A stretch of 33,981 bases of DNA from Christensenellaceae bacterium (GTDB lineage: Bacteria; Bacillota; Clostridia; Christensenellales; Aristaeellaceae), in contig JAAZPT010000289.1 of the NCBI GenBank assembly GCA_012797085.1, positions 1 through 33,981 on the forward strand. Direction: 5' to 3'. Of the stretch, positions 8,320-9,626 are shown in pieces. Each line of letters starts with the position of its first letter. The first letter of the stretch is position 1. The position numbers and the translations under genes are program-made. Under the pieces are notes generated by a model. That model saw nothing but the letters and a program-made list of their open reading frames with translations. It was not told the DNA's origin and made no database searches.

Positions 8320-8694
8320 ATGATAGACTTGGATTCTCTTATGTTTACAAGAACTGACGAATGGGTAAAGTATGTAGATAAAAACATCGCATTAGTAGGC
8401 ATAACCGAAAATGCTATAAAACTGCTTGGCAAAATAAAATATATCAGCTTGCCTAAAGTAGGAGATTTTTTAAAAGTTGGAGATGTTTTAGCAAGAACAG
8501 AGTCATCAATTAGCGATGGTAAGGTATATTCCCCCTTTGATGGTATTGTAGTTGAAGTAAACGACAGTTTGGCAAAACACCCTGAACAAATTATTGAAAA
8601 TCCTTTTGGTGTTTGGATAGCCAAAATAGAATTTAACGGCAATAGGGATATTCTTTTAAGCTATGAAGAATACTGCGAGGAAATTAACAGTTAA
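8320..8694 (+). CDS. GcvH-like (glycine cleavage H / lipoyl-domain) protein lacking the canonical lipoylation lysine
   Basis: LMFTRTDEWVKYVDKNIALVGITENAIKLLGKIKYISLPKVGDFLKVGDVLARTESSISDGKVYSPFDGIVVEVNDSLAKHPEQIIENPFGVWIAKIEF aligns without gaps to GcvH around [15 protein letters not shown]. The track start is 8302 (TTG); ATG 8320 fits the RBS. Confidence 0.85.
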   Translation: MIDLDSLMFTRTDEWVKYVDKNIALVGITENAIKLLGKIKYISLPKVGDFLKVGDVLARTESSISDGKVYSPFDGIVVEVNDSLAKHPEQIIENPFGVWIAKIEFNGNRDILLSYEEYCEEINS

Positions 8695-8708
8695 GGAGCT
8701 TCAACTTT

Positions 8709-9626
8709 ATGAGCGGTGGCATATATATAATATCCAAAACAAATAACCCATATTATAATCAAGCCACAATAGAGCATTTGTATAATGCTATACCAAAAGA
8801 CTATGTAGCAATGTTTATTTATAAAAATTATGGCTCAATATCTATCGGGCGTAATTTATATTGTAACAAAAAAACTGTACATAAAAGCTTGAATATTTAT
8901 AGGCGTTTTGGCGGTGGACCAAGCTTACAGCATAGTTTAGGTACAATAAATATAGATTTTGTTTCCTCCAGGTCGGCATCAAGTATAAGGACCCAGTCAG
9001 CCGTTATATCTTTAGCTTTAAAGTTGAACGGAATAAATTGTATTAGAGATAAAAACCAAAATATAACAGATAATAAAGGTATAAGGCTTGTTATAAACAG
9101 CTTTGATAAAAGTGGCATAGTTCCCCACCATAACCTTATTATTAATATTGATGACGAAGAAAAACCTAATGGATTAAAACCTATAGGCAACGACAGTATA
9201 AACGAAAACACAATTATTAATGCAATAATACACTCCTTTAACTCTCTTTATAAAAACACAAACTATTTTAATATACGAATGACCGATGATGCTAAAATAA
9301 AAAAACTGGCAGAATACTATGCCAGTGATGAATGGTTATTTAATAATGATATTGTTAGCCCTATAAGTGAAAACTTTGCTTGGGGCAATATTATATTCGG
9401 CCTTGAAGTAAGGGAAGGAATTATTAACAATGCCTATCTTTACAGCGATAGCCCCTACGGTGAGCTTTTAAGTGATGTACCTGAGGTTTTAAAGGGAAGC
9501 CCTTACCTGCTTAGCACAATGAAGGATAGAATTATGGAAATACCTTATACAAACAAACACATGCATGTAGTAAGGGATTTGTTTAGACTATTTGAAATAT
9601 ATATGAGCCCCAATAAAAAACTTTAA
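8709..9626 (+). CDS. Lipoate--protein ligase A family protein, divergent active site
   Basis: SISIGRN...RRFGGGPSLQHSLGTINIDF (cf. RRxSGGGAVxHDxGN), HHNLIINID, and C-terminal LplA accessory domain YYASDEWLFNNDIVSPISENFAWGNIIFGLEVREGIINNAYLYSD...LKGSPY. RBS AAGGAG; 14 nt after the gcvH-like stop. Confidence 0.82.
   Translation: MSGGIYIISKTNNPYYNQATIEHLYNAIPKDYVAMFIYKNYGSISIGRNLYCNKKTVHKSLNIYRRFGGGPSLQHSLGTINIDFVSSRSASSIRTQSAVISLALKLNGINCIRDKNQNITDNKGIRLVINSFDKSGIVPHHNLIINIDDEEKPNGLKPIGNDSINENTIINAIIHSFNSLYKNTNYFNIRMTDDAKIKKLAEYYASDEWLFNNDIVSPISENFAWGNIIFGLEVREGIINNAYLYSDSPYGELLSDVPEVLKGSPYLLSTMKDRIMEIPYTNKHMHVVRDLFRLFEIYMSPNKKL

Follow-up and report, generated by a model that had tools for sequence, protein, structure and literature searches.

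Proteins of the LplA family owe their annotation as lipoate-protein ligases to homology, and the locus described here raises the question of what such a protein, together with the H-protein-like carrier encoded beside it, might do once both have lost the lysines central to lipoylation. The window, which is the whole stretch of 33,981 nucleotides analysed, comes from a metagenome-assembled genome (MAG) of a Christensenellaceae bacterium and carries a gcvH-like gene followed by an lplA-like gene (Table 1). The first-pass annotation had read the two as a lipoyl-like scaffold and its former ligase, repurposed together. It had also described both reading frames as full length, 14 nt apart and preceded by good Shine-Dalgarno-like sequences, and these points, coordinates included, were borne out.

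Table 1. Features of the gcvH-like/lplA-like locus, numbered from the first nucleotide of the window.
Feature	Position	Strand	Basis
Sigma-70-like promoter, TTGACA-N17-TATATT	8256..8284	+	Placement plausible; regional promoter-like matches at chance level
Shine-Dalgarno-like GGAGGTG for the GcvH-like gene	8304..8310	+	Sequence
GcvH-fold protein ORF, 124 aa	8320..8694	+	PF01597, alignments, AF2, Foldseek
Ile64 codon ATT, lipoyl-lysine column, hairpin tip	8509..8511	+	2ka7/1zko alignment, 44 relatives, AF2, profile
Lys68, nearest lysine, in the hairpin's returning strand (66-70)	8521..8523	+	AF2
Shine-Dalgarno-like AAGGAG for the LplA-like gene, overlapping the preceding stop codon	8693..8698	+	Sequence
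LplA-fold protein ORF, 305 aa; active site degenerate, C-terminal domain retained	8709..9626	+	PF10437, TIGR00545, Foldseek
Altered lipoate-binding motif RRFGGGPSLQHSLG (canonical RRxSGGGAVxHDxGN)	8901..8942	+	Alignments
Arg126 codon AGG, catalytic-lysine column (GIRLVINSF vs GRKFSGNAF)	9084..9086	+	Family alignments, PDB alignment, profile
Possible terminator: GC-rich hairpin followed by a T-rich stretch	9674..9709	+	Inside the out-of-frame 3' portion of the convergent HTH gene

The upstream protein has the fold of an H protein. It matches PF01597 (GCV_H) with E=4e-24 (85.3 bits, cut-off 22.2), its AlphaFold2 (AF2) model has a pLDDT of 94.2 and a pTM of 0.88, and the top 22 Foldseek matches to that model are all H proteins (TM approximately 0.9 to 3a8j/3a7l); its scores lie under the NCBI equivalog cut-offs of both TIGR00527 (78.0 vs 115.85) and NF002270 (93.7 vs 117). 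The lipoyl-accepting lysine is missing. All 44 aligned H proteins, most of them from the same family with few exceptions, have Lys in its column; the window protein has Ile and reads ESSISDGK where every one of the others shows ESVK. A profile built without the window sequence gave the same register, with Ile64 again at the lipoyl column, as did alignment to 2ka7 and 1zko; the AF2 hairpin consists of strands 56-62 and 66-70 with a turn at 63-65, so Ile64 sits at the tip, as the first-pass annotation had supposed. The rest of Ex2Kx10G, the lipoylation motif of H proteins (PMC4518038), is kept, with Glu61 at -3 and Gly75 at +11.

The downstream protein retains both the catalytic and the C-terminal domain of LplA, as indicated by PF10437 (E=2.6e-8, 34.1 bits, cut-off 24), by the E-value of its TIGR00545 match (6e-25; 87.8 bits, below the cut-off of 280) and by Foldseek, whose top 23 matches, obtained with a low-confidence model, are all LplA, LipL1 or lipoyltransferase; PF21948 is matched at 24 bits, just under its 27-bit cut-off. 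The AF2 model was built from a two-sequence alignment, with a pLDDT of 52.6 and no usable active site, and the state of the catalytic centre was read from alignments. The catalytic Lys of G(R/K)K(I/L/V)SG is absent, and the sixth residue of the motif is Ile instead of Gly; in LplA this Lys and this Gly contact lipoyl-AMP (PMC3904984). Ile had originally been proposed as the replacement for the lysine. The loss is real, but the residue is Arg126 in every gapped alignment (three family alignments and the PDB alignment), and Ile at this position was rejected as the product of an ungapped alignment. Loss at the level of individual columns is seen for carrier and ligase alike in profile and family alignments and in alignments to PDB sequences. 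The alteration of the RR-SGGG-HD-GN motif was likewise confirmed by alignment, the lipoate-binding loop reading RRFGGGPSLQHSLGT in place of RRxSGGG(A)xxHDxGN; GRND has become KNQN, HHGT is now HHN, accompanied by a two-residue deletion, and the KxxSVRSRVxNL segment has become shorter and eroded. We infer from these changes that the protein could not be a normal ATP-dependent lipoate ligase.

The likely source of the pair is the glycine cleavage operon. Sister genera have the order gcvT-gcvH-gcvPA-gcvPB-lplA, with canonical lysines and sometimes lpd next, and the window LplA-like protein groups within the gcv-type LplA of these genera in the tree. The window pair resembles this operon in that gcvH precedes lplA on the same strand and that the H fold and the LplA C-terminal domain are kept; it differs in having no adjoining gcvT, gcvPA, gcvPB or lpd, in lacking the lipoyl and catalytic lysines and in its broken ligase motifs. 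The window GcvH-like protein is the only GCV_H in its genome (2.06 Mb, 441 contigs, 80% complete), and no GcvT, GcvP, second GcvH, second LplA/LipB-type enzyme or lipoyl E2 was detected in this 80%-complete assembly; a PF21948 search of the genome gave no match at E<=0.1. Weak matches to GDC-P, GCV_T and 2-oxoacid_dh were rejected as GcvP, GcvT and lipoyl E2, respectively, the sequences being Orn/Lys/Arg-decarboxylase-like, MnmE-like and an E2-like acyltransferase lacking a lipoyl domain. In the simplest history, gcvT, gcvPA/PB and lipoylation were lost and gcvH was left beside lplA; this is likely and not more than that, because the missing 20% of the genome could conceal a contiguous gcv operon.

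We favor, with a probability of about 0.5, the reading that the two genes form a retained, lipoate-free pair of pseudo-carrier and pseudo-ligase, a remnant of the gcvT-gcvH-gcvPA-gcvPB-lplA operon. Glycine cleavage and lipoylation would have been lost first, and the H protein and its ligase would then have been kept together as a pair that works without lipoate. The LplA-like pseudo-ligase may recognize the H fold, in which the -3 Glu of Ex2Kx10G is retained, or a small ligand, in either case without adenylation, and its role could be one of binding, scaffolding or regulation. The E. coli complex of ligase and H protein (3A7A, a Foldseek entry) provides a structural precedent for the proposed interaction between carrier and ligase.

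The same losses could also have left a relic. Once glycine cleavage and lipoylation had gone, the leftover genes might have evolved under weak constraint or none, with no stop or frameshift acquired so far, and this explanation, if on balance somewhat doubtful, accounts for several observations. The branch of the LplA-like protein measures 2.6 substitutions per site; no other terminal branch exceeds 1.2, less than half this length. Conserved and variable columns have been affected to a similar degree by the extra divergence (retention ratios of 0.47-0.76 for GcvH and 0.37-0.60 for LplA), which is the pattern predicted by relaxed constraint and indicates that the old constraint has gone. The partner enzymes were not found in the window genome. 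Nor did the search for homologous pairs proposed in the first-pass annotation yield a second example: protein queries found no ortholog of the pair in 308 genomes of the same family (all 308 for the GcvH query, 200 of the 308 for the LplA query), 396 of the order and 391 of the class, and relic decay therefore remains a serious rival. Close relatives of the pair were also absent from GTDB contigs and viral contigs, and no published description of a lysine-less GcvH/LplA pair was found in a literature drawn mostly from outside subscription journals.

The state of the genes nevertheless speaks against decay of this kind. The 429 codons of the pair contain no stop or frameshift, whereas neutral drift simulated to the same loss of identity, counting stops and ignoring indels, left zero stops with P of approximately 0.015 for GcvH and approximately 0.005 for LplA. 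Codon usage resembles that of neighboring genes, the AF2 model of the carrier is a confident H-protein fold, and a promoter-like site and two good Shine-Dalgarno sequences are in place. Frames that have stayed open through strong extra divergence, together with ordinary codon usage, make simple decay less likely. The hydrophobic core of the LplA-like protein has been kept above chance, with 30 of 36 changed positions still occupied by large hydrophobics (83% vs approximately 50% in simulation, P<0.01); the corresponding count for the GcvH-like protein is 8 of 13 (P=0.2). The LplA result is suggestive of maintenance and not proof of it, because part of this conservative substitution may have taken place before the loss.

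The expression signals have to be read with some reserve. A TTGACA-N17-TATATT element is present where a promoter had been claimed, but matches of this type are no commoner across the region than expected by chance (13 vs 11.3±3.3). Similarly, the hairpin taken for a dedicated terminator exists, but it is not clearly dedicated to the operon because it falls inside a seemingly frameshifted 3' portion of the convergent HTH gene, which together with moxR, DUF58 and transglutaminase genes makes up the neighborhood of the pair. This XRE-type gene (window 9629-10085, minus strand) ends in ESKAHL followed by a stop at 9813, and a 63-residue open stretch resembling its C-terminal part runs in another frame to approximately 9629; the apparent frameshift is either natural or an assembly error. 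Conserved placement of the pair beside moxR was considered and rejected, since the pair is absent from the ten closest moxR loci.

Retention of an LplA fold without its catalytic lysine is documented best in a sister genus, g14. Seven LplA paralogs there lack this lysine (loci L003, L006, L024, L030, L031, L180 and L181, from genomes G180, G190, G199, G143, G056, G083 and G013, respectively). It is replaced by Ile in G180, G190 and G083, by Leu in G056, by Ser in G013 and by Arg in G199 and G143, and a related paralog in G125 has kept the Lys and lost the motif Gly. No GCV_H was found in G180, G190, G056, G083 and G013, the source of five of the seven lysine-less proteins, nor in G125; G199 and G143 have a canonical gcv system too. 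Among the sister-genus paralogs, the more distant pairs were saturated, and the usable comparisons gave a dN/dS of 0.07 for the unsaturated G199/G143 pair (dS 0.47) and of 0.20-0.24 for three lysine-less pairs with a dS of approximately 1. Compared column by column, the G180 and G056 paralogs have lost the catalytic set selectively, and the remainder shows roughly the degree of conservation found in active enzymes. The lysine-less paralogs are clearly kept by purifying selection, which is a stronger finding than the window pair itself. Because they are under such selection and five of them occur in GcvH-free genomes, the LplA fold is retained in this family without its chemistry, even where there is no acceptor.

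The window ligase shares with these paralogs the loss of the catalytic Lys and of the lipoyl-AMP-contacting Gly in an intact frame; unlike it, they have no adjoining GcvH-like gene and have conserved most of their other residues. The His of the HD motif is Gln in the g14 paralogs and still His in the window ligase, which suggests independent origins, and common ancestry with the lysine-less clade was rejected on a tree support of 28 and on the presence of only one of the eight residues diagnostic of that clade. The window ligase probably represents an independent loss of the lysine, so the clade supports the window pair by analogy alone. As to the idea that carrier and ligase were repurposed together, both lysines have indeed been lost from intact genes, and purifying selection on lysine-less LplA makes repurposing plausible, but no ortholog of the pair was found and repurposing of this very pair is not proven.

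Several genes recur near the lysine-less paralogs. The one in G056 (L179 4857-5900) is found downstream of a moxR-DUF58-transglutaminase cluster, separated from it by 129 bp; this cluster (window 3618-8068) also adjoins the window pair, at the opposite end, which may be coincidence. A gene of the PF03458 'glycine transporter' family (L179 5827-6576) adjoins the G056 paralog, and an 82% identical homolog (L176 2820-3455) adjoins that of G190. Members of a further protein family, 43-46% identical to one another, are encoded near the paralogs of G180, G083 and G013 (L175 1846-3051, L180 3947-5047 and L181 6059-8725); Pfam gave no match for the two tested (L175 and L180), and NCBIfam none for L175.

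Known systems provide partial parallels. The GcvH-L/LplA2 pair in the class M sirtuin operons of S. aureus and S. pyogenes, for which lipoylation has been demonstrated, conserves both lysines (PMC4518038). Like it, the gcvH-like/lplA-like pair of the window stands by itself and is not part of a glycine cleavage operon, but it lacks the lysines and has no adjoining genes for SirTM (sirtuin), macrodomain or oxidoreductase proteins. LbpA, which is associated with sLpl(AB) in Hdr-like sulfur oxidation, is also a GcvH-like carrier with its own ligase gene; its lipoyl Lys is common to all 95 LbpA (PMC6067878, PMC10332631), whereas the window carrier is without this Lys and no hdr genes occur in the window. 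Archaeal LplA has been reported from genomes without a lipoyl-domain acceptor, for which cryptic acceptors or obsolete systems were proposed, and loss of the catalytic Lys is not described in the passages concerned (PMC3904984). Five of the g14 paralogs resemble this case, as ligase-family proteins kept in acceptor-free genomes; they and the window ligase differ from it in having lost the catalytic Lys, and in the window the carrier persists.

The remaining explanations fare less well. A different chemistry, with the carrier acylated at Lys68 or elsewhere and with Arg126 or another ligase residue as the catalyst, is improbable. Lys68 is only four residues from the old site, and Arg is a conservative replacement. 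However, the AF2 model puts Lys68 in the returning strand, in agreement with the first-pass observation that the nearest lysine is outside the hairpin tip, and modification at this shifted position, which had been offered as one possibility, is for that reason not favored. Most of the ligase's substrate-site residues are also gone (SGGG, HD, GN, GRND, HGT, the adenylate loop and the motif Gly), and no Cys stands in place of the ligase Lys; LipL/LipM-type transferases use Cys chemistry. Slightly less probable still is that the genome has a functioning glycine cleavage system whose canonical genes fall in the 20% not assembled, the window pair being a diverged accessory copy. In a MAG of this completeness and fragmentation, a single gap could conceal all of the gcv genes, since they form one operon in relatives, but the assembly shows no sign of other gcv genes, of another ligase or of a lipoyl E2, and absence is common in the family (approximately 219 of 308 genomes have no GcvH match). 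An artefact of misassembly or misalignment is scarcely credible, despite the apparent frameshift in the neighboring HTH gene, given that both reading frames are uninterrupted, that the GcvH column is ungapped and supported by structure and that the ligase Lys is missing in several alignments.

With the window pair and the g14 paralogs as independent examples, we also propose, tentatively and with a little less assurance than we have in the retained pair itself, that a lipoate-independent function of the LplA fold, joined here by an H partner, may be maintained by selection in this uncultured group of Clostridia once glycine cleavage and lipoylation have gone. Some LplA relatives without catalytic residues are measurably maintained by selection where the genome has no acceptor. 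For metagenome-assembled genomes, counts of gcvH or lplA matches overestimate lipoate metabolism. If the function is real, the question becomes what the LplA or H-protein fold does without lipoate.
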